In this document: positions 3,499 to 24,285 of the stretch, piece after piece
Position numbering within the stretch: the first letter of the stretch is position 1
How the letters are laid out: each line of letters starts with the position of its first letter
Source of the DNA: Halobacteriales archaeon QS_5_70_17
GTDB taxonomy: Archaea > Halobacteriota > Halobacteria > Halobacteriales > Haloarculaceae
Direction of reading: 5' to 3'
Length of the DNA stretch: 52,460 nt
Assembly (NCBI GenBank): GCA_003021975.1
Contig: PXRR01000031.1
Location: forward strand, 1 to 52,460
The notes under the pieces: generated by a model
Databases searched by the model: none
What the model was told of the DNA's origin: nothing
The model's input: the letters and a program-made list of their open reading frames with translations, nothing else
Translations under genes and position numbers: made by a program

Positions 3499-5328
3499 AT
3501 GAGCGACCGCCAACGGGACGCCGTACTCCGGGTCGACCTCTCTGCGGGGACCGTCGAGCGCGAGCGCGTCCCCGACGAGTGGCGCCGGAAGTACCTCGGG
3601 GGGAAGGGCCTGGGCGCGCGCTACCTCTACGAGGAACTCGACGCCGGTACGGACCCCCTGGGCCCGGGGAACCTGCTCGCCTTCATGCTCGGGCCGCTGT
3701 CGGGGTACCTCCCCGGCGAGTCCCGGTACGCCGCAGTGACGAAGTCGCCGCTGACGGGCGCGTTCCTCGACTCCTACAGCGGCGGTGCGTTCCCAGACGC
3801 GTTGGCGGGCGCGCTGACGCCCCCCGACGGCGAGACGAGACCGGATCGCGGCGAGAGAGCGGACGCGAACGGAGACTCGACGGGTACCCCACCGACCGGC
3901 GGCGGCCTCGGCGTGCTCGTGACCGGGGCGAGCGAGCGCCCGGTCGTCCTCGTCGTCGAGGACGGCGAGGGGCGCCTCGAACCGGCCGAGACCTGGGGCG
4001 AGGACGTCGCCGCGACCTGCGCGGCCCACGAGGGGAGCGTCGCCTGCGTCGGCCCCGCCGGCGAGAACGGCGTGGAGTACGCCACTATCGCCTCCGGCGG
4101 CGGCGACCACCACGCCGGCCGCGGGGGCGCCGGCGCGGTGATGGGCGCGAAGGGACTGAAGGCGGTGGTCGCGCGCGGCGACCCCCCCGAGGGGCTCGCG
4201 GACCTCCGCGAGCGGTACGGCCGCGAGTACGCCGAGAGCGACGTCGGCCGCTGGCAGGCCGCCGGCGAGACGATCGAGAGCGTCGACTTCGCCAACGAGG
4301 TCGGCGCGCTGGCCACGCGGGGCTGGCAGGCGACGACCTTCGAGGGCGCCGACGGGATCGGCATCGAGGCGGCCAGCGAGGCGGCCGGCGACGACATCCC
4401 GGGCGGGTTCCGGATCGAGACCGACGACGGCGAGAGCGTCCCGCGGGGGGCCGCGCCGATGAGCCTCGGGGCGGGGCTGGGCATCGACGAGTTCGACGCC
4501 GTCGCGGAACTCGGCGAGGTCTGCGACCGCCTCGGGACGGACGTCATCAGCGCGGGCAGCGCGGTCGCGTGGGCGATCCGGGCCGGCGACCGGGGCCTGA
4601 TCGACCGCGAGTTCTCCTTCGGCGACCCCGACGGCGCCCGCCGGCTGATCGAGGAGATCGCGACGCGGTCGACGCCACTGGGCGACGCGCTGGCCGACGG
4701 CGTCGCGGCCGCGGCCGACCGCTACGGCGGCCGCGACCTCGTGCCGACGGTGAAGTCCATGGAGCTGCCGGCCTACGACCCGAGCGACTCGCCGGCGATG
4801 GCGCTGGCCTACGCCACGAGCGACCGCGGTGGCTGTCACCGCCGGGCCCGGCCCATCGAGGAGGAGGCGTTCGACCCCGACTGGAACCTCGCCGACCGGG
4901 TGCGGGCCGTCGCGGGCGCCCAGACCGCGCGGTCGGTGCTCTGGTGCCTCGTCGTCGACGACTTCGTCGGCGAGGCGCTGTCGGACCTGGGCGCCGAGTG
5001 GCTCGCGGCGGTCGGACTCGACTACGACGACGAGGAACTGGCCCGGACCGGCGAGCGGATCTGGACGCTCGTGCGCCTGTTCAACGCTCGCGAGGGGTTC
5101 GACCGGAGCGACGACGAACTGCCGCCGGCGGTCGCCGGCGAGGGGCGGATCGACCCGGCGGCGTTCCAGCGCCTGCTCGACGCCTACTACGCGACCCGGG
5201 GGTGGGGGCCGAACGGCCTGCCGACCCGCCGAGCGCTAGCGCGCTTGGACGTCGCCGGCCTCCCGGACGCCGCGACCCCGCTTGACGACCGCACGGCGAA
5301 CGTGACACCCGAAACTGCCGATGACTGA
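3499..5328 (+). CDS. Aldehyde ferredoxin oxidoreductase family protein lacking the CxxCxxxC cluster motif
   Basis: YLGGKGLGARYLYEE, HAGRGGAGAVMGAKGLKAVV, YDPSDSPAMALAYATSDRGGCHRR are AOR pterin-binding signatures. Confidence 0.85.
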   Translation: MSDRQRDAVLRVDLSAGTVERERVPDEWRRKYLGGKGLGARYLYEELDAGTDPLGPGNLLAFMLGPLSGYLPGESRYAAVTKSPLTGAFLDSYSGGAFPDALAGALTPPDGETRPDRGERADANGDSTGTPPTGGGLGVLVTGASERPVVLVVEDGEGRLEPAETWGEDVAATCAAHEGSVACVGPAGENGVEYATIASGGGDHHAGRGGAGAVMGAKGLKAVVARGDPPEGLADLRERYGREYAESDVGRWQAAGETIESVDFANEVGALATRGWQATTFEGADGIGIEAASEAAGDDIPGGFRIETDDGESVPRGAAPMSLGAGLGIDEFDAVAELGEVCDRLGTDVISAGSAVAWAIRAGDRGLIDREFSFGDPDGARRLIEEIATRSTPLGDALADGVAAAADRYGGRDLVPTVKSMELPAYDPSDSPAMALAYATSDRGGCHRRARPIEEEAFDPDWNLADRVRAVAGAQTARSVLWCLVVDDFVGEALSDLGAEWLAAVGLDYDDEELARTGERIWTLVRLFNAREGFDRSDDELPPAVAGEGRIDPAAFQRLLDAYYATRGWGPNGLPTRRALARLDVAGLPDAATPLDDRTANVTPETADD

Positions 5329-6229
5329 CAGCATCGACCTCGACGACATCGAGGCGGAGAGCGAGGAACCGACCGAAGACGACCGCAACCGTGGCGACTG
5401 GTTCTGGCGCGGCGAGGGCGACCCCGAGGACGAACCCGCCGGCGACACCGGCGACGTCGGCCCCGGATCGGACGGACCGACCGGACCGACCGGCCCCGGC
5501 CTGGAAACCGAGACAGACGCGGACGCGGACGCCGAGGCCGACGGGAGCGACGACGCGAGCGATGCCGGCGGCGCCATCCCGCGGGTGCCCCGCGAGAACG
5601 AGGACCGGCCCGTCGGCATCCCCGTCGAGAGCGGGGGCGCCGGCGGCGCGGACGCCCGCCGCGCCGGCGAGCGCGACCGCGAGCGGACCCTCGACCCCGA
5701 CGCGGACCACGTCGAGAGCGAGAGCGGGAATGGAAACGGGAATGGGAGTGGAGACGCCGCCGCGACCGCGCCGAGGACCCCCGAGGCGGAACCGGGCGAC
5801 GCCGGCGAGAGCGGCGACGCGCCCGCAACCGCTTCCGGCCCCCACGGCGGCGGCGTCGACGACCGGACCCAGGCGTTCACCTACCGGTCGCTCAGGCGCC
5901 TCGAACACCTGCACACGGCGCTGGCCGACGCGGAGTCCTGGAGCGACTGGGTCGGCGTCGTCGGCGACGTCCCCGCCCACGTCATCAACAAGTTCCAGCG
6001 GGAGAACCAGGTCGACGTCGACTTCTTCAACGGCGCCGGGGCCGGGCCGGGCGAGCGCCTCGCGGAGATCGGCCCGAGTTCCATGTTCTACGCCGAGCGG
6101 ATGGTGCTGGTCGGCCTCGAGGACGAGGCGTGGATGGCCGAGGTCGCCGGCTGGGAGTTCGTCCCCCTCGCCGAGGCCGCCGAGGCCGCCGGCTGGGAGC
6201 TGACCGACGCCGACGAAGGCGACGCCTGA
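5321..6229 (+). CDS. Haloarchaeal hypothetical protein with long acidic low-complexity linker and conserved-looking C-terminal domain
   Basis: ATG overlaps the AOR stop region by 8 nt. N-terminal NRGDWFWRGEGDPEDEP, C-terminal WSDWVGVVGDVPAHVINKFQRENQVDVDFFNG. Confidence 0.75.
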   Translation: MTDSIDLDDIEAESEEPTEDDRNRGDWFWRGEGDPEDEPAGDTGDVGPGSDGPTGPTGPGLETETDADADAEADGSDDASDAGGAIPRVPRENEDRPVGIPVESGGAGGADARRAGERDRERTLDPDADHVESESGNGNGNGSGDAAATAPRTPEAEPGDAGESGDAPATASGPHGGGVDDRTQAFTYRSLRRLEHLHTALADAESWSDWVGVVGDVPAHVINKFQRENQVDVDFFNGAGAGPGERLAEIGPSSMFYAERMVLVGLEDEAWMAEVAGWEFVPLAEAAEAAGWELTDADEGDA

Positions 6230-6279: not shown

Positions 6280-6552
6280 ATGAGCCTGAGAAATTCGATG
6301 CGGCAGTCCCGGGTGCTGACGCTCGTCCTGCTGACCCTCATGGTGTGGCTGCTGGTGACGATACTCCGGATCGGGGTCGACGTGACGAGGCGCTGGGAGC
6401 CCGGCGCCGCGGGCGAGTACATCGGCGCGAGCCCTATCGGCGGGGCGATGGGCGTTCTGGTCATGCTCGGAGTGCTCGTCCTGCTGCTCGTGCTCTACAG
6501 CGAGGTCGGGCACTCAGAGCCGGGACCGAGCACCTGGCCGCCGGAGAAATAA
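6280..6552 (+). CDS. Small two-TM membrane protein
   Basis: VLTLVLLTLMVWLLVTILRI and GGAMGVLVMLGVLVLLLVLY hydrophobic segments. Confidence 0.65.
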   Translation: MSLRNSMRQSRVLTLVLLTLMVWLLVTILRIGVDVTRRWEPGAAGEYIGASPIGGAMGVLVMLGVLVLLLVLYSEVGHSEPGPSTWPPEK

Positions 6553-6695
6553 TGCAGTACGAGTGCACCGAGTGCGGACAGCTGGGCCGGTTCGTCACCG
6601 AGGAGGCCCCGTTCACGGCGCCGTGTCCGATCTGCGAGGAGCGGACCCTCTGGACGGCGGCCTTCGAACCCGAAGGGGAGGGGATCTCGTTTTGA
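6552..6695 (+). CDS. Small zinc-ribbon (CPxCG-type) protein, 47 aa
   Basis: MQYECTECGQLG...APCPICEERTLW; start overlaps the previous stop (TAATG). Confidence 0.7.
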   Translation: MQYECTECGQLGRFVTEEAPFTAPCPICEERTLWTAAFEPEGEGISF

Positions 6696-7051
6696 CCCTT
6701 CAGTTCACCGTCGGCGACCGGTTCCTCGACGCCGCCCGGGAGTGGGGGGATTCCCGCCTGATGGACGCCGAGGAGGCGCTCGAGGCGAAAGCCGAGCAGG
6801 CGCTGCTCGAGATCGAACACCTCGTCTCCGGGGCGCACGAGGTGTCGTTCGCCGTCGACCTCGACCAGGAAACCGGAGAGGCGACGATCGCCCACGAGCC
6901 GAGCGACGAGCTGTCGGCGTTTCTCGCCGCCCAGTCCGAGGAGAGCGGCCTCGACGAGGCGGCGCTGCTGAAGCTCCACGTCGACCTCTTCGCGCGGGTG
7001 TTCCTCGAGGAGGACACCAAGCGCCCGCCGAACGCCCCGCCCGAGGAGTGA
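6692..7051 (+). CDS. Haloarchaeal hypothetical protein
   Basis: TTG start overlapping the previous TGA (TTGA); acidic coding sequence LTLQFTVGDRFLDAAREWGDSRL. Confidence 0.55.
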   Translation: MTLQFTVGDRFLDAAREWGDSRLMDAEEALEAKAEQALLEIEHLVSGAHEVSFAVDLDQETGEATIAHEPSDELSAFLAAQSEESGLDEAALLKLHVDLFARVFLEEDTKRPPNAPPEE

Positions 7052-7418: not shown

Positions 7419-8657
7419 CTACCGCATCGGGAACGAGCGGCGGTTCCGGGGCGGAACGTAGAAGTTCGCACGGGAGGTGACGGTGACGAAGTCGAGGATG
7501 CCGTTGTTCTCGCGGTCGGTGATCGCCTCGCTGTCGTCGCGAACGTACCAGCCGTTCATCGCCTTGCGCGTGCTCCGGAAGTCCGCGAGCGACCGCTGGA
7601 ACGACATGAAGTGGACGCCGGGACGGCCGCCGTCGACGGTGTTGAAGTCCCGCCGGAGGATGACCGGTTCGCCGTCCCGGCGGGTCTGGGCGACCTTCTC
7701 CTGGTGGCCGACGACGTCGAAGTCCGCGGCGTGCTCCTGGACCGCGTCGGAGAACGGGACCTCCGTTCCGAACCCCGAGACGTCCTCGGGGGAGAACTCC
7801 GGCGAGAACATGCGGGCCACGCGGCCGGCCTCGTCGAAAGCGTCGTACCACGTCTCGAGGTCGAGGCGGAGGTGGCTGAGGTGCATCGTCGTGCCGTCGG
7901 CGAACTGCCCGTCCCGGACGGCGACCCGGCCCTCGGAGGCCTGAGTACCGTCCCGGTCGGAGAAAAATCCCATGAACTCGGTGTCCTCCGGCGAGAGGGC
8001 GTCGCCCGGGACGCCCTCGGCGTCGGCGTGTTCGGCCGGCAGTCCCTCGCCGACGAACCCCGTCCGGCGCTCGCTGACCGAGAACACCTCCCCGAGGGCG
8101 TTGTCGCCGTCGATCGACTCGCCGTTCAGGTCGTCGCCGGCGCCGAACATGGCGTGTTCGACCGCCGAGAGGTGCGAGGGGACGTCGCTGGCGAGCACGA
8201 GGACGGCGTCGAACCCCAGAAGCGCGGGATCGTCGGTTCGAGAGAGCACCTCGGGTTCGCTGATCGGCGCCGCCGAGAGCTCCCCCAGTCGGTCGAAGTA
8301 GGCGGTGCCCCATCCGAGCGCGTGGAAGAGCCCCTCAGGCGACCAGTCGTAGGCCGCCTCGAGGGTTCGCATCGCCCGCTCGACGACCTGCTCGGCCTGC
8401 AGCGACGGCTCCTCGTCGAGGTCGAGCAGGAGGAGCCGCCGGTAGCGCGGCGGGACCGTGTTGCCGTCGTCGTCGGTCGTCAAGGTCGCCGACTGGGCGT
8501 ACTGCCTGACCGGGAGTTCGTCGGCCCGCGGATTGGCGGGTAACCCCTCTACGCCCGGATCCCCCGCCGACCGGGCCAGGATCCGGCTACACCCCGCAAA
8601 TCCGGCGCTGCTCGCGGCGACAGCGAGCCGCCCTAGCAACCCCCGTCGAGATACCAT
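7419..8657 (-). CDS. Tat-exported lipoprotein, DyP-type peroxidase-like
   Basis: MVSRRGLLGRL Tat motif, AGFAGC lipobox, EFMGFFSDRDGTQ resembling the DyP GxxDG motif, HLRLDLETW. Confidence 0.65.
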   Translation of the reverse strand: MVSRRGLLGRLAVAASSAGFAGCSRILARSAGDPGVEGLPANPRADELPVRQYAQSATLTTDDDGNTVPPRYRRLLLLDLDEEPSLQAEQVVERAMRTLEAAYDWSPEGLFHALGWGTAYFDRLGELSAAPISEPEVLSRTDDPALLGFDAVLVLASDVPSHLSAVEHAMFGAGDDLNGESIDGDNALGEVFSVSERRTGFVGEGLPAEHADAEGVPGDALSPEDTEFMGFFSDRDGTQASEGRVAVRDGQFADGTTMHLSHLRLDLETWYDAFDEAGRVARMFSPEFSPEDVSGFGTEVPFSDAVQEHAADFDVVGHQEKVAQTRRDGEPVILRRDFNTVDGGRPGVHFMSFQRSLADFRSTRKAMNGWYVRDDSEAITDRENNGILDFVTVTSRANFYVPPRNRRSFPMR

Positions 8658-9535: not shown

Positions 9536-10168
9536 CTATCCCGCGACCATCTGGGCGACGATCTCGTCTTCGAACTCCACCAGCCCCAGGAACAGCGACG
9601 CCGCGGCGCGGTAGAGATCCTCGTCGGTCTCGTCGCTGACGTCCGCGTGGAACTCCTCGACCCAGGTCGAGAGGTGCTCGTCGATGAAGACTCGCTCGTA
9701 GCCGAACGCCTCCTCGTGGCCGTCGCGCTGGAGACCGATCAGGTACCGGAGGAAGGCGAGTTCCACGGCGATGAAGTCGTTCTCCTCGCCGTAGTCCTCC
9801 GGGGGGTTCCAGCCGGCGGCGGCGTAACTGGCCTCGACATCGGCGAGGCCCTCGCCGATGAAGTCGGTGTCCTCGCGGTAGTAGGTCTCGTGGGCCAGCA
9901 CGGGCGGGCGCGGGCCGACGAACACGGTCGTGTACTCCGTCTCCAGTTCCTCCTGGACCGCGGCGGGATCGCGCGCCCGGTTCTCTTCGACGAACGTCCG
10001 GAGGCGGTCGAACCCCTCGTCGAGGTGCTCGTTGACGCCGTCCTCCGGGAACCGGAGGTCGCCGTCGAGCAGTTCGGCGACGAACTCCTCGCCGGGGACG
10101 TCCCAGAACGCCTCGATGAGGAAGTCGACGATCTCGATGCGCGCCTCGTAGACGGCGTAGTCGTCCAT
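9536..10168 (-). CDS. TorD/DmsD-like molybdoenzyme maturation chaperone
   Basis: All-helical acidic protein: LETEYTTVFVGPRPPVLAHETYYRE, ENDFIAVELAFLRYLIGLQ, FIDEHLSTWVEEF. Start overlaps the upstream gene stop (TGATG). Confidence 0.8.
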   Translation of the reverse strand: MDDYAVYEARIEIVDFLIEAFWDVPGEEFVAELLDGDLRFPEDGVNEHLDEGFDRLRTFVEENRARDPAAVQEELETEYTTVFVGPRPPVLAHETYYREDTDFIGEGLADVEASYAAAGWNPPEDYGEENDFIAVELAFLRYLIGLQRDGHEEAFGYERVFIDEHLSTWVEEFHADVSDETDEDLYRAAASLFLGLVEFEDEIVAQMVAG

Positions 10169-12288
10169 CAGCGCCCACCCCCTTCGAACAGCACCGCTGC
10201 ACGGCAGTTGTTACAGTACTCGAAGACGCTGTGATCGGCGTCGGGGGCGATCCCCTCGACGCGGTCGCCGACCTCGTCCATCACCTTCTGGGCCGACCCC
10301 GCGCTGGTGAAGGGATCGCCGCAGCGGACGCACTCCAGCATCTCGCCGTCGTGGACGGTCTCCCAGGCCGCGCCGTCCCGGCGCTCCGGGAGCCGCGTCA
10401 GGTCGAGGCCGTCCTCCATCGTGATCGCCGTCTCGGGACAGCCCTCCTCGCAGAGCCCGCAGTTGACACACCGCTCGTGGTTGAACTGCAGGTCGCCGCC
10501 GTCGGTCCGCCGGATGGCGTCGGTCGGGCACATGCTCGAACAGGTCGGCGTGAGGTTGCACGCCTCGCTGACCGACATCCGGCCGAAGTTGTCCAGTCCG
10601 CGGATCACGTCGCGCTCGGGCGTCGAATGCTCGATGATCGCCCGGACGCTCTCCAGGGCCCAGTCGTGGTTGTTGAACGCGGGACGGCCGGTGCCCCCGT
10701 CGACGACTCCCTCGGCCTCGTGGTCGCCCTCGGGAACCGGCGTCGCGTCGAGACCGGCCTCGAACGCCCTGAGGTCCTCGACGAACCCCTCGGTGTCGTC
10801 GGGGTCGGGGGCGAAGAACTGCACGCGCTCGCCCAGTCCGAGGTCGCCGCTGGCCCGGTTGAGTCGCTCGACCAGTTCGGCCCGCGGGTCGGGGCCGGTG
10901 TGGAGACAACCGTCGCCACAGCCGACGACGGCGACGCCGTCGGCGCCCGCCGCCAGCGCGTGCATGGCGTGGGCCTCGCCGACGGTGGCGGTGCAGTTGA
11001 CCCGGACCGGGAGGATCGGCGGGTAGCGCACGTCGTCGCCGCCCGCGGACTGCCGGCCGTAGGCCCGCAGGGCGTCGGCGGCCCGCTCCGAGCAGACGAA
11101 CGCGACGATGGGCGTCTCGATGCCCGACCGCCCGCCGAACAGCCAGCCGCCGGAGTCGTCGGTGGGATCGAGCAGCGCCTCGACCTCGCGGGCGATCCGG
11201 CGATTGGAGGGCTCGCGGAGCATCGTCGCCCCGGTCGGGCAGTCGCTGGTACAGGCCCCGCAGTTCTGGCAGGCGACCTCGTCGAACTCGACGGAGTCGA
11301 TGGTCGGCCGCTCGACGGCGTCGTGCGGGCAGGCCTCGACGCAGGCGTTACAGCCCATCTGACTGGACTCCCCGGAGGCGCAGACCTCCATCTCCAGGTC
11401 GAGGAACTTCGGCTTCTCGACGCCGCCGAGCAGGCTCTCGACGGCGGCGATCTTCGCGCTGTCGATGGTCCCGGTGTAGAAGCCCAGTCGCCCGCCCCGC
11501 GTGGCCGGCGCCGCGCCCGGGTAGAGCACCTGGTCGAACTCCAGGGTCCGCTCGACGCCGTCCATCTCGATCGCGTCGGTGGGACAGCAGTCGGCCCACT
11601 CCCCGTCGGGCGCGTCCGGATGGATGTCGACGGGGCGGCGCGTGACCATCCCGTCGGGCCCCTCCTCGACGCACTTCATACACGAGACGCAGTCCTCGGT
11701 GACCCGCGAGCGCACGAGCAGTTCGTAGCCGCCGTACTCCCCGTCGACGGCGACGACCCGCCCGCGCTCGATCTCGACGTCCTCCAGGGAGGCGTCGGCG
11801 TCGTGGAACTCCCGGCCGTCGGCGACCAGCGTCACGTCGGCGGAGTCCGCGAGCGCCGCGGCGGTCCCGGCGTCGCCGACCACGGCGACGCTGTCGCCGG
11901 CCTCGCGCTCGACGGTCCGGGAGATCGCCTCCTCCTCGAGGCCGGCCCGTCGGGCGTTGATCATGCGCGCGGTCTTGGCGGTGGCGGCGCCCTCCCCGTG
12001 GACCCACCCCGCGCCCTCCCGGTGGTCGACGAAGGCCGTCGCCTCCGGGTGGAGCCCCTTCTCCTTCGCGAGCGACCGGAAGGTGTCCTGGCAGTTCGGC
12101 TCCGGCGTCGTGACGATCAGCTGGTCGAGGTCGTACTCGTCGATGACCTTGTCCATCCCCCCCAGCCCGTCCCGGCAGAGCAGCTCCGAGCTGGCGACGA
12201 CGTCGACGTCTGTCACGCCGTCCCGGACAGCCTCCAAGTCGATGTCGCAGGTCCCCCCACAGGAACACACGAACGCTCCGACGTTCAT
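10168..12288 (-). CDS. HdrA-like polyferredoxin fused to an MvhD-like domain (CoB-CoM heterodisulfide reductase/hydrogenase delta related)
   Basis: N-terminal CSCGGTCDIDLEAVRDG; Fe-S motifs CVSCMKC..CCPTDAI, CNACVEACP, CQNCGACTSDCP, CNLTPTCSSMCP, CVNCGLCEEGCP; MvhD-like segment VRVNCTATVGEAHAMHALAAGADGVAVVGCGDGCLH. Confidence 0.75.
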   Translation of the reverse strand: MNVGAFVCSCGGTCDIDLEAVRDGVTDVDVVASSELLCRDGLGGMDKVIDEYDLDQLIVTTPEPNCQDTFRSLAKEKGLHPEATAFVDHREGAGWVHGEGAATAKTARMINARRAGLEEEAISRTVEREAGDSVAVVGDAGTAAALADSADVTLVADGREFHDADASLEDVEIERGRVVAVDGEYGGYELLVRSRVTEDCVSCMKCVEEGPDGMVTRRPVDIHPDAPDGEWADCCPTDAIEMDGVERTLEFDQVLYPGAAPATRGGRLGFYTGTIDSAKIAAVESLLGGVEKPKFLDLEMEVCASGESSQMGCNACVEACPHDAVERPTIDSVEFDEVACQNCGACTSDCPTGATMLREPSNRRIAREVEALLDPTDDSGGWLFGGRSGIETPIVAFVCSERAADALRAYGRQSAGGDDVRYPPILPVRVNCTATVGEAHAMHALAAGADGVAVVGCGDGCLHTGPDPRAELVERLNRASGDLGLGERVQFFAPDPDDTEGFVEDLRAFEAGLDATPVPEGDHEAEGVVDGGTGRPAFNNHDWALESVRAIIEHSTPERDVIRGLDNFGRMSVSEACNLTPTCSSMCPTDAIRRTDGGDLQFNHERCVNCGLCEEGCPETAITMEDGLDLTRLPERRDGAAWETVHDGEMLECVRCGDPFTSAGSAQKVMDEVGDRVEGIAPDADHSVFEYCNNCRAAVLFEGGGR

Positions 12289-12479
12289 CAACTCAAGGTA
12301 CGCGACGACGATGAAAGCTCTTGCGTCCTCGGGTCGGAGAACCGTCGACACAAGTCTTAGGTCGGCCAAAAACCGGGGGCGCTCCCGGAACTTTCAAGTA
12401 GCAAGGGGGTATTCTTGCGTGTCAATGCGTGGTAGAGAAATTCGCCGTACAGCGGTTCTGACGGGGGGAACGGTAATCG

Positions 12480-12510: not shown

Positions 12511-15500
12511 ATGGGAACTGAACCTGTTTCACTTGATCTCGACCGGCGGTCGTTCCTGAAGGCGAGCGCGCTCGCGGGCGCCGTCGCGCTGGGCGGGGCC
12601 GGCGCGGGGCAAGCGCTCTCTCAAAACGAGGGGGAGACCGACGGCACGGACACCGAGGGCGAACTGAGCAAGACGATCTGTAACTACTGTTCGGTCGGCT
12701 GTGGTTTCCGCGGCGAGCGGAAGGGCAACGCCTTCGTCGGCCAGGAGCCCTGGAAGGAGCACCCGATCAACGGGGGGTCGCTCTGTTCGAAGGGGGCCGG
12801 CATCTACGCCACCGAGCACTCCGAGAAGCGGGTGAAACACCCGATGATCCAGGAGGACGGCGAGTGGAAGAAGCTCTCCTGGGGCGACGCCTACGAGCGC
12901 CTCGGCAACGACATCAAGGCGCTCTGGCCCGACCACGATCTCAGCCCCTCGGAGGCGACCGACGTCGACGAGGAGGCGAGCCGCGAGAGCGTCATGCTGC
13001 TCGGGAGTGCCCACCACTCCAACGAGGAGTCCTACGCGATCCGCAAGCTGGCGGCGTTCATGGGGACGAACAACATCGACCACCAGGCGCGGATCTGTCA
13101 CTCCACGACGGTCGCCGGCCTCGCGAACACGTGGGGCTACGGCGCGATGACCAACACCGTCCAGGACTACCGCAACTTCGACCTGAACGTCATCATCGGG
13201 CAGAACCCCGCCGAGGCCCACCCCATCGCGATGCAGCACATCCTCGAGGGCCAGAAGCGCGGCGGGACGATCCTCTGTCTCGACCCGCGGTTCACGAAGA
13301 CCGCGGCCCACGCCGACGAGTTCATGCGGTTCCGGCCCGGCACCGACGTCGCCCTGGTGATGGGCGTCATCAAGGTGCTGCGCGACAAGCACGGCCTCGC
13401 GATGGACCCGGACGCGGACGACTCCGGGCAGAACATGCTCACCGACCGCGTCCAGGGCTGGGAGGACGTCGACGCCGAACTCGACCAGTACGACCTGGAG
13501 ACGGTCTCGGAGATCACGTGGGTCGATCCGGAGGGCATCGAGCGCATCGCGGACCTGATCCACGAGAACCGGCCCAACGTCCAGATCGAGTGGGCGATGG
13601 GCGGCACCCAGCACAACAACGGCACCCAGAACATCCGCTCGTACGCGATGGCGAGTCTCGCGTCGGGCAGCGCGGCCCGCAGCGGCGGCGGTCTGCAGGT
13701 GATGCGCGGGCACGCCAACGTGCAGGGCGCGACGGACCTCGCGGTGGCGAGCCACATCTTGCCGGGGTACTACGGGCTGACGGCCGGTGGCTGGTCGTGG
13801 TGGGCCGACGTCTGGGACAAGAGCCCCTACACGAACGGGTCGGTCTCCTTCGGGGATCTCTACGAGAAATTCGAGTTCCTGGACCCCGAGCTCTACGGCC
13901 GCCAGGAACCGAGCTTCCGCTCCGAGGACGCCGGCGACCTGCCGGCGACCCACGACGACAAGGGCCACAGCCCCGACAAGCCGGCGGACAACTCGATGAT
14001 GTTCCAGAACGGGCTGACCGTGGCCCGCTGGTTCGAGGCCGCCCTCGACAAGGAAGACCGGATGCAGGAGACGCCGATCTACCAGCCCGATCAGGTGAAA
14101 ATCGCCGTCTTCTGGGGGCACTCGGCGAACTCCATCAGCGAGATGGAGAAGATGAAAGAGGGGATGGAGAACCTCGACCTGCTGGTGGTCGTCGACGTCT
14201 TCCCCTCGGTCGCGAGCGTCCTGCCGGACTACGAGGAGGGGCCGCCGGTGTTGCTGTTGCCGGCCTCCAGTCAGTACGAGCACTACCGCTCGCTGACGAA
14301 CACGAACCGGTCGGTGCAGTGGTCCGAGCCGGTTCGGACCCCCGCCCACGACTCCAAGCCCGACCTGCAGATCATGCAGGAACTGGCCGCCGAACTCGGC
14401 TTCGCCGACCACTTCGACTGGGGCTCCGGGGCGGACCTCCACAACGGGAAGTCCACCTACGAGGACGTCGTTCGGGAGTTCAACCTCGGGACGATGACGA
14501 TCGGCTACCGGCAGACCCCCGAGCGCCTCCAGCAACACCTGGAGTACGACTACGCGTTCTCCAACGAGGACCTCCAGGCGAAAGGCGAGGGGACGCCGGT
14601 CTCCGGCGACTACTGGATGCTCCCGTGGCCGTGCTGGGGCGAGGACCACCCCGGGACGCCGATCATCTGGAACGACGACAAGAACCCCAACAACGGGGGC
14701 CAGGACTTCCGCGCCCGGTGGGGGGTGCAGGCGCCGACCCCCCAAGAGTGGGCCGAGAACCCCACCGACGAGGACTACCCCCTCGAAGCGACGATCAACT
14801 CCGACCGGTACGACAGCCAGGAGGAGGCGCTGAGCCTCCTCCGGGCGCCGTACAAGCCCGAGTGGGCCGGCCAGCGCGAGACGGCCGAGGACGGGATGAT
14901 CCACGGGGTGCCGGAGTATCCGGGCTGGAAGACGACGTTCCCGGAGAGCCTGATCGATCCCAGCCAGGAGACCCAACCGGACGAACTCACCGTCCCGTAC
15001 GAGCATGCGCTCGCGAACGACCGCTCCGGGTTCACGGCCGCGCGCGCGATCAGCGATCCGGAGAACTACCTGGAGGGGAGCCACAGCCAGGAGTTCCTGG
15101 ACCACCTCAAGAGCAAGGACGTCGGTCCGGGCTTCTACGAGCAGTACGACTACCGCCAGCCCGACGCTCCGACCGGCCGCGGGCGGGCGCGAGCGGTCGC
15201 CTGGAACTTCATGGACAAGGTGCCGGTCCACCGCGAACCCATCGAGAGTCCCCACCGCGACCTCGTCGAGGAGTGGCCTGCGAACGAAGGCCAACGGAAC
15301 TTCTACCGCCTCGACCAGAACAACCGTGTCGAGCAGGAGCAGGCCATGGACATCATCCACAATCAGGACGAGGGACCCGACCTGGACACCATCATGACGA
15401 CCGGGCGGCAGGTCGAGCACCAAGGGGGCGGCTCGGAGACCCGTTCGAACATCCACACCGCCGACCTCCAGCCGCACATGTACGCCGAGATCACGCCCAA

Positions 15501-15909
15501 CCGGGCGGAGAACCTCGGCGTCGATGGGGGGGACCTGATCGTGATCTCCTCGACCGACCGCGGATCCGTGCTGGTGAAAGCCCGCGTGACGGACCGCCCC
15601 AACGACAAGGAGATCTTCCTCCCGTACCACTGGGGCGGGGTGTTCAAGGGCGAAAGCCTAGAAGACAAGTACCCCGACGGCCACGTCCCGTACGCTATCG
15701 GTGACTCGGTCAACGGGATCACCTCCCGGGGGTACGACGTCGAGACCCAGATGCAGGAGACCAAGGTCTCGATGGTGGCCGTCCGCAAGGCGACCGAGGG
15801 GCTCCTGGAGGAACTCAACATGGACACCGACCTCGAGTTCCCCCAGGATCGCAACGGGATCGGCACGCAGAAAGACTTCGACGTGCGGGACAGCAGCACG
15901 ACCCAATAA
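12511..15909 (+). CDS. Formate dehydrogenase catalytic subunit (FdnG/FdoG-like, Cys instead of Sec), Tat-exported
   Basis: DRRSFLKASALAG Tat signal; CNYCSVGCGF 4Fe-4S; HQARICHSTTVAGLANTWGYGAMTN, where E. coli FdnG has Sec-His; TQHNNGTQNIRS; RGHANVQGATDL. Confidence 0.85.
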   Translation: MGTEPVSLDLDRRSFLKASALAGAVALGGAGAGQALSQNEGETDGTDTEGELSKTICNYCSVGCGFRGERKGNAFVGQEPWKEHPINGGSLCSKGAGIYATEHSEKRVKHPMIQEDGEWKKLSWGDAYERLGNDIKALWPDHDLSPSEATDVDEEASRESVMLLGSAHHSNEESYAIRKLAAFMGTNNIDHQARICHSTTVAGLANTWGYGAMTNTVQDYRNFDLNVIIGQNPAEAHPIAMQHILEGQKRGGTILCLDPRFTKTAAHADEFMRFRPGTDVALVMGVIKVLRDKHGLAMDPDADDSGQNMLTDRVQGWEDVDAELDQYDLETVSEITWVDPEGIERIADLIHENRPNVQIEWAMGGTQHNNGTQNIRSYAMASLASGSAARSGGGLQVMRGHANVQGATDLAVASHILPGYYGLTAGGWSWWADVWDKSPYTNGSVSFGDLYEKFEFLDPELYGRQEPSFRSEDAGDLPATHDDKGHSPDKPADNSMMFQNGLTVARWFEAALDKEDRMQETPIYQPDQVKIAVFWGHSANSISEMEKMKEGMENLDLLVVVDVFPSVASVLPDYEEGPPVLLLPASSQYEHYRSLTNTNRSVQWSEPVRTPAHDSKPDLQIMQELAAELGFADHFDWGSGADLHNGKSTYEDVVREFNLGTMTIGYRQTPERLQQHLEYDYAFSNEDLQAKGEGTPVSGDYWMLPWPCWGEDHPGTPIIWNDDKNPNNGGQDFRARWGVQAPTPQEWAENPTDEDYPLEATINSDRYDSQEEALSLLRAPYKPEWAGQRETAEDGMIHGVPEYPGWKTTFPESLIDPSQETQPDELTVPYEHALANDRSGFTAARAISDPENYLEGSHSQEFLDHLKSKDVGPGFYEQYDYRQPDAPTGRGRARAVAWNFMDKVPVHREPIESPHRDLVEEWPANEGQRNFYRLDQNNRVEQEQAMDIIHNQDEGPDLDTIMTTGRQVEHQGGGSETRSNIHTADLQPHMYAEITPNRAENLGVDGGDLIVISSTDRGSVLVKARVTDRPNDKEIFLPYHWGGVFKGESLEDKYPDGHVPYAIGDSVNGITSRGYDVETQMQETKVSMVAVRKATEGLLEELNMDTDLEFPQDRNGIGTQKDFDVRDSSTTQ

Positions 15910-16586
15910 TGTCAACAGACCAAGGAAATCGCGAGCGGATGCGGGAGGGAGTGATGAGCGTCGGCGAAAGCGCTCGTATCTTCCCCGACGTGGAGGCGTG
16001 TATCGACTGCGGTGGCTGCGTCGTCGCCTGCAAGCGGACGTGGGACATCGACCCCGGCGAGCAGCGGATCAGCATCTCGACGATGCTCGAGGGCCAGGAG
16101 GCCGCCGAAGGACTCAACGCGAGCAGCGCGAAGGCCCTCAACCAGGGCGAGAGCCCGGGCGAGACGAGCATCCCGATGCAGTGCTACCACTGCGAGGAGG
16201 CCCCCTGCGTGTCGGTCTGCCCGACCGACTCGCTGATCAAGCAAGACGAGAGCGGGTTCGTCAACGTCCGCGACGACCTCTGTATCGGCTGTCAGTACTG
16301 TCTGTCGGCCTGCCCGTTCGGCGCGCCGCAGTTCCCGAACTCGGACCAGGCGACGGCCCAGATCACCGGCAACGGCGGTACGATGGACAAGTGTACGATG
16401 TGCGAGGAGCGCCAGGACGTCGGCAAGGGGCCGGCCTGCGCCGAGGAGTGTGCGACCGACGCCATCCTCGTCGGGACCTCCGGACAGATCGCGGAGGAGC
16501 TCGACCGGCGCGACAGCGGGACGTTCTTCAACGACGTGGCGATGAACATCATCTTCGGGGAGGACGAGGCCGAGGAGGTGTTCTGA
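15909..16586 (+). CDS. Formate dehydrogenase Fe-S (beta) subunit, 4 x 4Fe-4S type
   Basis: CIDCGGCVVACKRTWDI, CYHCEEAPCVSVCP, CIGCQYCLSACPFGAPQF, CTMCEERQDVGKGPACAEECATDAI. Confidence 0.88.
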   Translation: MSTDQGNRERMREGVMSVGESARIFPDVEACIDCGGCVVACKRTWDIDPGEQRISISTMLEGQEAAEGLNASSAKALNQGESPGETSIPMQCYHCEEAPCVSVCPTDSLIKQDESGFVNVRDDLCIGCQYCLSACPFGAPQFPNSDQATAQITGNGGTMDKCTMCEERQDVGKGPACAEECATDAILVGTSGQIAEELDRRDSGTFFNDVAMNIIFGEDEAEEVF

Positions 16587-16587
16587 G

Positions 16588-17061
16588 ATGGCCAGGGAGT
16601 ACCCTGAGACGAACTCCTACAGCGGACTCGCCGTGGCGATCGCCGCCCTCGCCGGCGTCCTGGCCGCGGTGGCGAGCGCCTGGGTCGCGAACGGCTTCGC
16701 GACCAACTTCGAGGAGCTGTTCCGCGTCGCTCCCACCGTCGAGAGCGGCGGCGTCGGCAGCGACTGGGTGGCCGGCAACACGCTCACGTGGCTCGATTTC
16801 CTGGTCGCCATCACCCACGCGGTCGACGTGCTGATGGGCGTGTTCATCCTCGTGATGGTGTTCATCCACTGGGCGGCGTTCCGGCGGCTGGCCGGCCGGA
16901 TGCGCAAGCCCGGCGGGCGGCGCCGCGAGGGCGTTGCCACCGACGGCGGGACGGCCGACGACGAGAGGACCGACGACGAGACCGTCACGGACGGCGGCGT
17001 CCCCGCCGACGGGACGGCGAGCGACGCGGCCGCCGACCGGCGAGGTGATCGCGGTGACTAA
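16588..17061 (+). CDS. Small membrane protein in the formate dehydrogenase operon
   Basis: Two TM segments (GLAVAIAALAGVLAAVASAWVA, AVDVLMGVFILVMVFIHWAAF); sits between the beta and cytochrome b-like subunits. Confidence 0.65.
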   Translation: MAREYPETNSYSGLAVAIAALAGVLAAVASAWVANGFATNFEELFRVAPTVESGGVGSDWVAGNTLTWLDFLVAITHAVDVLMGVFILVMVFIHWAAFRRLAGRMRKPGGRRREGVATDGGTADDERTDDETVTDGGVPADGTASDAAADRRGDRGD

Positions 17062-18061
17062 TCTCGATCACGGGAAGTTCACGCGGACGACGACGCTGTT
17101 CCACAGCCTGCTCGCGCTGGACGTGTTCCTGCTGTTCTTCACGGGATACGGGATCATGTTCAACGACGAGCTGTGGTGGCTGATCGCGCTGCTGGGCGGC
17201 TACACCGGAATCAGCGCCATCCACCGGATCGCCGGCCTCGGGCTCGTGGCGCTGATCGTCTTCTGGGTAGTGCTGATGGTCGTCTCGCCGACCGGCCGGA
17301 GTAACTTCCGGACGATCGTGCCGACCGGTGACGACATCCGAGCGTTCATCCAGGACGTGAAGTTCGTGGTGGGTCGCGCCGACGAGCGCCACCCCAACGC
17401 GCGGCAGTTCGGGGGCGACAAGTCCGGCAGCGTCCCCCTGCTCTCGTACATCGGGAAGGGCGTGGTGTTCATCTTCAGCATCGAGCTGACGCTGCTGACG
17501 ATCTCCGGGCTGCTCATCTGGAGCAAGACCGGCCTGGTGGACTTCTTCGCGACGAAGACCGCGGCGATGGGCTTCGTCGTCTTCCACGGACTGCTCGGAG
17601 TCATCATGCTGATGGGGGTGATGTTCCACATCTTCGAGCACGGCTTCCACCCGGCGTTCTACCCCGTCGAAACGAAGGCGTTCATCCCCCGGAGCATGAT
17701 CCCCGAGTCCCACGGGGACGACGAGGAACCCGAGACGACGGGCATCGAGCGCCTCGAACTCGCGCCCAGCTGGAGCTGGGTCGCCAACCTGATGGGGGCG
17801 CTGACCGTCATCGGCATCGTCAGCGTGCTCGTGGCGAGCATCTTCGACGAGGGGTACCCCGTCCCGCGCGAGCTCGCCATCGGCGGCGGCCCGACGAACC
17901 TGCTGTTGACCGTCGGGGTCAACATCGGCATCTTCGTGCTGTTCGTCGGCCTGGTGCTGTCGATGTACGGGAACCTGGTCCGGATCCGCTGGGAGCGGCA
18001 GGTCGAGCGCCGCCCCGGCGACCGCACCGCGGCCGACGGCGGCCAGCCCGACGACGACTGA
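17045..18061 (+). CDS. Formate dehydrogenase cytochrome b-like (gamma) subunit
   Basis: GTG start at 17045 or 17054. TM His residues in FHSLLALDVFLLFFTGYG, IHRIAGLGLVAL, FHGLLGVIMLMGVMFHIFEHGF. Confidence 0.78.
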   Translation: MIAVTNLDHGKFTRTTTLFHSLLALDVFLLFFTGYGIMFNDELWWLIALLGGYTGISAIHRIAGLGLVALIVFWVVLMVVSPTGRSNFRTIVPTGDDIRAFIQDVKFVVGRADERHPNARQFGGDKSGSVPLLSYIGKGVVFIFSIELTLLTISGLLIWSKTGLVDFFATKTAAMGFVVFHGLLGVIMLMGVMFHIFEHGFHPAFYPVETKAFIPRSMIPESHGDDEEPETTGIERLELAPSWSWVANLMGALTVIGIVSVLVASIFDEGYPVPRELAIGGGPTNLLLTVGVNIGIFVLFVGLVLSMYGNLVRIRWERQVERRPGDRTAADGGQPDDD

Positions 18062-18973: not shown

Positions 18974-19540
18974 ATGGAGCTGGAGTTGCGGTTCTTCGCG
19001 AACTTCCGATCGGCCGTCGGCCAGAAGACCATCCCCCGAGAGTACGACGACGGAGCGACCGTCGGGGACGTGCTCGCGGGTCTCGAATCCGAGTTCGACG
19101 GGCTGGAGGGGGATCTCCTCGACGACGAGGGCGAGATCCGACCGCAACTGAGCGTTCTCAAGAGCGGGCGGGAGGTCGAACACATGGACGGCGTGGAAAC
19201 CGGTCTCGAGGACGGCGACACGCTGTCGGTGTTCCCCCCGGTCGCCGGCGGCGCGACGACCCGCAGGGGGAAGGCGTTTCGGGGCATCTCGCTGCGGCTG
19301 GCGGTCCACTACCTCGAGAACCTCGGCGGCGAGCGCGTCGACGACGGACCGCCGGCCGAGGAGGCCGACGAGGCCGTCGTCGAGGGGGGCGGCTGGCGGG
19401 CCGACCTCTCGGCCGAGAAGGTGAACGCCGCCGGATCGTTACAGCTCACCGAGGTGAGCATCGGCTTCGAGGGGGACGAGGAGACCCTCGAACCGCTGAT
19501 CGAGAAGTTCTCACAGAAGGCGATGCGCGCCGGAGGGTAG
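18974..19540 (+). CDS. MoaD/ThiS-family (SAMP-like) protein with C-terminal extension domain
   Basis: MELELRFFANFRSAVGQKTI...LEDGDTLSVFPPVAGG (MoaD-type) followed by ~100 aa KAFRGISLRLAVHYLENLGG...MRAGG. Confidence 0.82.
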   Translation: MELELRFFANFRSAVGQKTIPREYDDGATVGDVLAGLESEFDGLEGDLLDDEGEIRPQLSVLKSGREVEHMDGVETGLEDGDTLSVFPPVAGGATTRRGKAFRGISLRLAVHYLENLGGERVDDGPPAEEADEAVVEGGGWRADLSAEKVNAAGSLQLTEVSIGFEGDEETLEPLIEKFSQKAMRAGG

Positions 19541-22347: not shown

Positions 22348-24285
22348 TCAGTCGTCGCTCGGGGCGGCCGCGCCGCCGCTACTGGAGACACCGGTACCGG
22401 GGCCGACCTCGATGCCCAGATCGTCGAGCTTCTCGTCGGGGACGACGCCGTCGACCCAGCCGCGGTGGTCGTAGTACTCCTCTTTCATCTCGTCGAGTTC
22501 GCAGAGCTCGCCCTCGCTGCCGCCCTGGCCGGGGATGGCGTTCTCGTGGCCCTCGACGAACTTCCCGGGCAGGTCGTCGTCGCTGCCGTCGAAGCCCGCG
22601 AGGTTGTTGTAGTACCGCTCGAGGTTGTAGACCCGCTCGCCGGCCTCCATCAGTTCGTCCTCTGAGACGTCGAGGCCCGTCATGCCGTTGTACTGCATGA
22701 CGTACTCCTCGATGCCCTCCGCGAAGGCGTTGAACTTGCAGATGTCGAAGGAGTCGCTGATGGCGTGCAGATCCTGGAAGGTGGCGCAGAGTTCGCCCTT
22801 GCCCTCCCACTCGTAGGGATCGACCTTCTCGGGGATGCCGAGGATCTCGGCGGCGGGCGTGTACCCGCGCAGGTGGCAGGCCCCGCGGTTGGAGGTGGCG
22901 TAGCCGATGCCCATCCCCTTCATGCAGCGGGGGTCGTAGGCCGCGATGGACTGACCCTTGACGTCCAGCCGGTAGTCGTGGCCGTCGATCTCGTCGGCGA
23001 AGCCGGCGTGGCCCTCGGCCATCGCGTCGGCGAGGTCGTCCTCGCGGTGGGCGATCCGCTCGATGAGGTCGATGATCTCGTCGGCGTCGCCCCACTCGAT
23101 GCCCTCGCCGAAGTCGTCGAGTTTGCCCTCGTCGTCGGCCTCCATCGCCATGGCCATCGTGTTGCCGGCGTCGATGGTGTCCATGCCGACCTTGTTACAG
23201 CGGTCGATCATGACCGCGATCTTGTCGCGGTCGTCGTTGGCGGAGTTAGTGCCGAGCGCCCAGGCGGACTCGTACTCGTAGGACTCCATCTGGACGTTCA
23301 TCTCCTCGCCTTTGACCTCGGTCTCGACCTCCACTTCTTTCTTGCAGGCGACCGGACAGGAGTGGCAGGTCGGTTCGTCGACGAGGATGTTCTCGCGGAC
23401 GTTCTCCCCGCTGATGCGCTCGGCGTCGAGATCGGTCCCCTCGGCCTCGTTCATCGCGTTCGAGGAGGTGTACAGGCCGTTCTTCGTCGGGTGGCCGTCC
23501 ATCTCCTCGGTGACGTTCATGAGGACGTTGGTCCCGTACACCGAGAGGCCGCCCTCGTTGGGCGCGGTGACCTCCGACTCCTGGATCACCTGCATCGCCT
23601 GCTGGTGCCCCTCGCGGAACGTTTCGGGGTCGGCCGGCTTGGGCATGTCCGTGCCCGAGCGGACGACGACCGCCTTCAGGTTCTTGTCGCCCATCACGCA
23701 GCCGGTACCCCCCCGGCCCGAGGAGCGGTCGTCCTCGTTCATGACGCAGGCGTACCTGACGCCGTTCTCGCCCGCCTGGCCGATGGTCATGATCGAGAGG
23801 TTCTTCCCGAAGCTCCCCTCGACCTCCTCTTCGAGGGCGTCGCGGGTCTCGTGGGTGTCCTTCCCCCAGATGTGGGAGGCGTCCCGGAGTTCCACCTCGC
23901 CGTCCTCGACGACGGCGTAGACGGGGTCCTCGCTCTTGCCCTCGAACAGCAGGCCGTCGAAGCCGGCCCACTTGAGCCGGGCGCCCGACCAGCCGCCGTG
24001 GTGAGAGTCCGTGACCGTGCCGGTGAGGGGCGATTTCGTACAGATGGCGATCCGGCCACTCATCACCACCTGCGTGCCCGTCAGCGGTCCGTTCATCATG
24101 GCGAGGAGGTTGTCCTCGCTGCGTGGATCGACGTCCGGCCCGTTGTCGAAGACGTACTTGACGCCGAGTCCCCGCGCCCCGATGTATTTCTCCGCGTCCT
24201 CGTCGTCGATGCTTTCGTAGTCCACATCCCCCTCCGAGAGGTCGATGCGAGCTACGTTGTCTTGGAATCCTCCGAGTTCAGTCAT
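22348..24285 (-). CDS. Aldehyde ferredoxin oxidoreductase (canonical Fe-S ligands present)
   Basis: YIGARGLGVKYVFDN, SSGRGGTGCVMGDKNLKAVV, EPTCHSCPVACKKEV (CxxCxxxC), YDPRCMKGMGIGYATSNRGACHLRGYTPAAE, FDICKFNAF. Confidence 0.93.
   Translation of the reverse strand: MTELGGFQDNVARIDLSEGDVDYESIDDEDAEKYIGARGLGVKYVFDNGPDVDPRSEDNLLAMMNGPLTGTQVVMSGRIAICTKSPLTGTVTDSHHGGWSGARLKWAGFDGLLFEGKSEDPVYAVVEDGEVELRDASHIWGKDTHETRDALEEEVEGSFGKNLSIMTIGQAGENGVRYACVMNEDDRSSGRGGTGCVMGDKNLKAVVVRSGTDMPKPADPETFREGHQQAMQVIQESEVTAPNEGGLSVYGTNVLMNVTEEMDGHPTKNGLYTSSNAMNEAEGTDLDAERISGENVRENILVDEPTCHSCPVACKKEVEVETEVKGEEMNVQMESYEYESAWALGTNSANDDRDKIAVMIDRCNKVGMDTIDAGNTMAMAMEADDEGKLDDFGEGIEWGDADEIIDLIERIAHREDDLADAMAEGHAGFADEIDGHDYRLDVKGQSIAAYDPRCMKGMGIGYATSNRGACHLRGYTPAAEILGIPEKVDPYEWEGKGELCATFQDLHAISDSFDICKFNAFAEGIEEYVMQYNGMTGLDVSEDELMEAGERVYNLERYYNNLAGFDGSDDDLPGKFVEGHENAIPGQGGSEGELCELDEMKEEYYDHRGWVDGVVPDEKLDDLGIEVGPGTGVSSSGGAAAPSDD

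Follow-up and report, generated by a model that had tools for sequence, protein, structure and literature searches.

A clade of haloarchaeal AOR-fold proteins without [4Fe-4S] cluster ligands is linked to formate dehydrogenase

Introduction

The closest described relatives of the protein reported here are the enzymes of the AOR/WOR family, among them Pyrococcus furiosus AOR (1AOR) and FOR (1B25) and Haloferax volcanii WOR83 (9Q1T), with which it has the AFOR_N and AFOR_C domains and the full-length fold in common. Glu313, Thr243, Tyr427 and His448 (1AOR numbering) are second-shell residues conserved in AORs, and Glu313 is universally conserved among the known AORs (2025 review, PMC12096430). 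In the open literature searched we found no published description of AORs of the clusterless type treated here, and members of the family carry the NCBI name 'aldehyde ferredoxin oxidoreductase C-terminal domain-containing protein'.

The usual sulfurtransferase-chaperone of formate dehydrogenase (FDH) is FdhD, and YqeC is a known marker of selenium/molybdenum hydroxylases. How the cofactor is inserted and sulfurated in FDH-bearing halobacteria without fdhD has been named an open question (2023 review, PMC10609526).

Results

The window is the whole 52,460-nucleotide stretch analysed from Halobacteriales archaeon QS_5_70_17, and it comes from a 73%-complete assembly of 78 contigs; the same genome has three further AOR-family matches. 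The AOR-like gene (3499..5328, forward strand; ATG at 3499, TGA at 5326-5328) encodes a protein of 609 amino acids, and both the ORF and the peptides quoted from it in the initial annotation proved correct. The Pfam scan gave AFOR domains only, PF01314 (E=1.2e-82) and PF02730 (E=3.6e-57), both above the curated cut-offs, and the FdhD domain PF02634 was absent from the protein. AFOR_N spans residues 9-105 and AFOR_C residues 238-584, with an acidic insert near 108-134. HMMER grouped the protein with AOR/FOR structures, and the AlphaFold model, a check proposed in the initial annotation of this DNA, confirmed a full-length AOR fold (pLDDT 90.9, pTM 0.93) with a Foldseek TM of about 0.85 against 9mqx, 1b25 and 1aor (P. 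furiosus AOR/FOR).

The orthologs are full length, about 55-68% identical to the window protein and distributed over 10 haloarchaeal families, and their scores are set apart by a gap, from about 800 down to 280 bits, from those of the canonical paralogs of the same genomes. In a maximum-likelihood tree the clusterless proteins formed one clade (support 100/100), whose neighbouring branch consists of cluster-bearing HHAGRGG proteins, and the median dN/dS among the clusterless orthologs was 0.12 (119 pairs). The alignment and tree that had been suggested at the outset thus show, with 96 orthologs, that cluster loss defines a conserved clade. Outside Halobacteria no clade-level scores were found in a phylum-wide sample of 394 genomes, and the best two matches there (520-543 bits) have the cluster Cys.

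For the residue counts, 96 distinct full-length orthologs were aligned to P. furiosus AOR. The former CxxCxxxC site reads GDDIPGGF in the window protein (residues 297-304; 4387..4410, forward strand), and Cys was found at columns 288, 291 and 295 in none of the 96 orthologs, so that the absence of the motif was read correctly in the initial annotation. Its count of three ligands lost out of four was too low, as the fourth-ligand column, Cys494, is Asp in 96/96 orthologs (Asp487 in the window protein). All four [4Fe-4S] Cys columns are therefore without Cys throughout the alignment, and the term clusterless is appropriate. The Cys of VLWC (C483), which had been taken to remain near the fourth-ligand position, aligns with Ser490 of 1AOR, is Cys in 32 and Ser in 64 of the 96 orthologs, and was rejected as a ligand. 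An alternative conserved four-ligand set, which had been considered as well, was not found across the clade alignment, in which the only clade-wide Cys are the scattered C183, C342 and C446.

The catalytic acid is also gone. PRGA (residues 315-318; 4441..4452, forward strand) stands in place of PEYE, with Ala318 at the position of Glu313; this column is Ala, Gly or Ser in 96/96 orthologs, and Glu311 and Tyr312 are replaced by Arg (Arg316) and Gly (Gly317), each in 96/96. The other second-shell residues, all encoded on the forward strand, are kept: Thr258 (4270..4272; Thr243 of 1AOR) and His447 (4837..4839; His448) in 96/96 orthologs, and Tyr426 (4774..4776; Tyr427) as Tyr in 92/96.

The pterin signatures had been described as intact, which proved to be half of the picture: GRGG, Arg76 (94/96 orthologs), the first DxxGxD and RG(G/A)CH are still present, and Asn93, Arg182-Ala183 and the second DxxGLC are not. 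The pterin motifs of 1AOR are two of the form DxxGL(C/D)x. The first (338-343) is kept with variation (Asp or Asn at 338, Gly341 in 86/96, Asp343 in 96/96), and the second (489-494) has become WxLxxD(D), with Trp at Asp489 in 96/96 orthologs. In the window protein WCLVVDD (residues 482-488; 4942..4962, forward strand) replaces DSAGLCL, removing both the second motif and the fourth cluster Cys. In the pterin/Mg region, HHAGRGG (residues 204-210; 4108..4128, forward strand) has His-His for Arg182-Ala183 (His in 96/96 and 92/96 orthologs, respectively), and Asn93 is Tyr in the clade. His448, Thr243, GRGG, Asp343 and Arg444 are each found in 95-96 of the 96 orthologs. The cofactor-motif columns, chosen from the 1AOR motifs plus PMC12096430, average 90% for the commonest residue compared to 73% over the whole protein.

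A haloarchaeal sister clade (HH-AOR; Natrialba magadii NMAG_RS18645 and Natribaculum longum; about 41-43% identity) has HHAGRGG, SYSGG and SDRG(A/G)CH in common with the clusterless AORs and, unlike them, retains CxxCxxxC, Glu313 and Cys494. As these sisters already possess the His-His pair, the SYSGG loop and an aromatic residue at Asp489, the pocket was remodelled first and the cluster and Glu were lost second. NMAG_RS18645 is located among amidase and transporter genes. A cluster-bearing AOR subfamily was also observed at loci L124, L125, L133-L140 and L161, in which the loop is of the HH(A)RGG type and an aromatic residue replaces Asp489; apart from this remodelled, uncharacterised pterin site, these AORs are canonical. 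In some clusterless AORs (L141/L155 of genome G038, and genomes G008, G009, G109, G172 and G212) additional residues, within the loop that once bound the cluster or close to it, split the HMM match into two pieces.

In the window, the AOR-like gene overlaps by 8 bp the start, at 5321, of a DUF7124 paralog with a long acidic low-complexity N-terminus (5321..6229, forward strand; PF23439, E=2.6e-35), which bears out the coupling to an acidic downstream protein noted earlier. About one locus in four has DUF7124 as its downstream neighbour; this family was rejected as a specific marker of the clusterless AOR, each of 80 genomes having at least one copy. A second, diverged DUF7124 paralog tends to adjoin clusterless AORs or Tat-exported FDHs. 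Further downstream on the forward strand lie a small membrane protein (6298..6552; family F7), conserved in the same arrangement, and a small conserved protein (6623..7051; family F6, start uncertain) with no Pfam match. A DUF7405 protein (7419-8657; PF24152, E=1.2e-110; family F11) is a conserved neighbour of several clusterless AOR copies.

A Tat-exported FDH-like operon lies 7 kb from the AOR-like gene. On the reverse strand there are a TorD/NarJ-type molybdoenzyme chaperone (9536..10168; PF02613, E=4.6e-26) and an HdrA2-like electron-transfer protein combining FlpD with multiple [4Fe-4S] sites (10168..12351; HdrA-like; PF02662, Fer4 domains). On the forward strand follow the Tat-exported FDH-like alpha subunit of the bis-MGD family (12511..15909; PF00384, PF01568, PF04879), the [4Fe-4S] beta subunit (15939..16586; PF13247, E=1.2e-17), an ORF for a small protein without Pfam match (16588..17061) and a cytochrome b561-type, FDH gamma-like subunit (17045..18061; PF01292, E=9.2e-20), whose formate-DH-gamma match is weak. 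The alpha subunit keeps the active-site C-H, and its best NCBIfam match, TIGR01591, reaches 389 bits, below the cut-off of 666; the cytosolic (L113) and NAD-linked (L104) FDHs of other loci exceed this cut-off, unlike the window FDH. The window also holds a canonical WOR83-type AOR with CxxCxxxC (22348-24285), about 3 kb from a ThiS/MoaD-like gene (18974-19540).

Clustering of neighbours across haloarchaea gave the MobA-like transferase, YqeC, the TorD/NarJ chaperone and FDH alpha as recurrent neighbours of the clusterless AOR, which accompanies three FDH types, cytosolic, NAD-linked and Tat-exported. The order at L113 is YqeC, MobA, F10, fdhA and AOR-like gene, with 7 bp between the last two; the AOR-like gene adjoins a NuoF-like gene and fdhF on pHTUR02 of Haloterrigena turkmenica, and fdhF and fhs in Halobellus limi. 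F10 is a haloarchaeal family of 185 amino acids beside cytosolic-type FDH (L113:6339-6896, L118:10853-11410 and further loci among L010-L187), for which no Pfam or NCBIfam match was found. Its AlphaFold model (pLDDT 93.9) has a weak likeness to archaeal 8-oxoguanine glycosylases (Foldseek E 1.3e-3, TM 0.56), and a guanine-binding fold beside an MGD enzyme would make F10 a lead for cofactor handling. It was rejected as a universal FdhD substitute, since it occurs in only 35/80 genomes, mainly with cytosolic FDH.

Among 294 halobacterial genomes the clusterless AOR was present in 160 (8 of them counted from two HMM pieces, owing to an insertion or contig break), a strong FDH in 188 and both in 158 (Fisher p 6.5e-49). 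The two AOR genomes without a strong FDH match, G270 and G287, have a divergent FDH-like gene, in G270 beside YqeC and the AOR-like gene, and were thus not kept as exceptions. The link also held within genera, in the 249 genomes with a genus assigned: the CMH z was 8.4 over 17 polymorphic genera, and 0 of 20,000 within-genus permutations reached the observed 146 (maximum 136). Genomes with listed FDH positions contain 118 copies, and among the FDH matches listed, 73 of these copies (62%) have an FDH alpha gene at a distance of at most 15 kb, with about 1% expected per FDH copy; for about 38% of the copies no listed FDH gene is nearby, though their genomes have FDH. The clusterless AOR accompanies the long FDH type in all 50 genomes, compared to 108/138 of the other FDH genomes (p 6e-5), among the FDH matches listed and with the long type called Tat-exported from match span and ORF length, so that these counts are lower bounds and the split is approximate. 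Thirty of the 188 FDH genomes are without the protein, several of them with YqeC-MobA-F10-fdhA cassettes, and it is thus not obligatory for FDH. YqeC was found in 160/160 clusterless-AOR genomes and in 187/188 FDH genomes, which suggests an FDH-related role for it. FdhD (PF02634) was found in none of the 294 halobacterial genomes, while 8 of 14 control genomes were positive in the same search.

Discussion

By fold and domains the clusterless AOR belongs to the AOR superfamily, but it does not have the features that define the enzymes (the four Cys, Glu313 and both pterin motifs). The protein has lost both the cluster, which is the known electron path, and Glu313, the proposed base, and is therefore unlikely to oxidise aldehydes in the way known for AORs. 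That a ligand is still bound is suggested by the above-average conservation of the second-shell residues and of the half of the pterin site that is kept. The second motif and Mg-proximal residues are altered, partly before the cluster was lost, and cofactor binding may consequently be weak or absent.

The link of the clusterless AOR to FDH is well supported. Given FDH, YqeC and MobA as partners and the missing FdhD, the simplest interpretation is that the protein carries the FDH cofactor or completes it. With moderate confidence we regard it as a non-redox FDH accessory, the likeliest role being that of a maturation factor or of a carrier for the Mo/W-pterin cofactor. Redox catalysis would have been abandoned along with the [4Fe-4S] ligands and Glu313, and a pyranopterin Mo/W cofactor or its precursor would be held in the remaining part of the AOR cavity, to be protected, modified or handed over during maturation of the bis-MGD FDH. 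The protein would act beside YqeC and the MobA-like transferase in FDH organisms without FdhD. The initial annotation had proposed a clusterless tungstopterin protein, perhaps a non-redox, regulatory or cofactor-handling paralog. That the protein is clusterless, non-canonical and conserved as a clade is borne out, a bound tungstopterin is at most conjectural with one pterin motif lost, and the paralog proposed can be narrowed to a probable FDH-linked accessory. The link to FDH is shown, and cofactor handling is what we infer, from the binding of pterin to its delivery to FDH and a possible part in sulfuration. AOR binds bis-MPT without nucleotide and FDH uses bis-MGD, which counts against cofactor handling. 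More tentatively, FDH of haloarchaea might mature without FdhD through a separate pathway, in which this retired tungstopterin oxidoreductase, alongside YqeC and MobA, carries the cofactor or acts as a chaperone in its sulfuration or insertion.

It is doubtful that the protein is a pseudoenzyme, an AOR scaffold without cofactor whose role is to bind FDH, or the partners in its assembly, in a structural or regulatory manner, with no cofactor transferred. The loss of all four cluster ligands, of Glu313 and of one pterin motif would agree with this, as would the close link to FDH, but a bare scaffold would need none of His448, Thr243, GRGG, Asp343 and Arg444 (95-96/96) or Tyr427 (92/96), all conserved above the protein average. 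We also consider it unlikely that the protein is still an enzyme of formate/C1 metabolism, a clusterless tungstopterin protein with non-redox chemistry, for which the W-dependent acetylene hydratase is a comparison, or with direct electron exchange with FDH. The retained His, Thr and Tyr, an Arg316 that is new to the active-site loop and invariant, and the occurrence of fhs, glyA and folate genes in the vicinity of some copies could be explained in this manner; however, the general base Glu313 and the [4Fe-4S] path are gone, and the copies accompany three FDH types with differing partner subunits.

The clusterless AOR is often found on plasmids and often close to FDH, and could be an unrelated conserved protein travelling on the same islands, but about 38% of the copies are away from a listed FDH gene with FDH still in the genome, and the correlation holds in 17 polymorphic genera and for three FDH types, making this explanation very improbable. 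Errors of sequencing or assembly and decay of the gene, which an incomplete assembly in many contigs might suggest and to which a CxxCxxxC in the closest homologs had been expected to point, can be dismissed, because the nearest outgroup does have the motif but the loss is ancient and common to a clade under purifying selection, with an identical pattern in 96 distinct orthologs and a dN/dS of 0.12.

The clusterless AORs clearly illustrate that a clade of the AOR family can lose its cluster and catalytic acid and still be under selection, and such genes should not be annotated as aldehyde oxidoreductases. The clusterless AOR and YqeC are two candidates, independent of FDH type, for the question of fdhD-free maturation (PMC10609526). 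The clade bears on how W/Mo enzymes turn into cofactor-handling proteins; if the carrier or maturation role is true, the scaffold of one Mo/W superfamily would have been recruited for building the cofactor of another.

Compared to the AOR/WOR enzymes, the clusterless AOR has His448 and Thr243, mostly Tyr427, GRGG and the first DxxGxD in common with them, and differs in having no [4Fe-4S] Cys, no Glu313 and no second DxxGLC, in the His-His for Arg182-Ala183 and in its link to FDH. Its likeness to FdhD would lie in the proposed FDH-specific cofactor handling, whereas FdhD is unrelated in fold and sequence and is absent from the same genomes. YqeC (TIGR03172) and MobA belong to families unrelated to the clusterless AOR and are its genomic partners in Mo-cofactor maturation.
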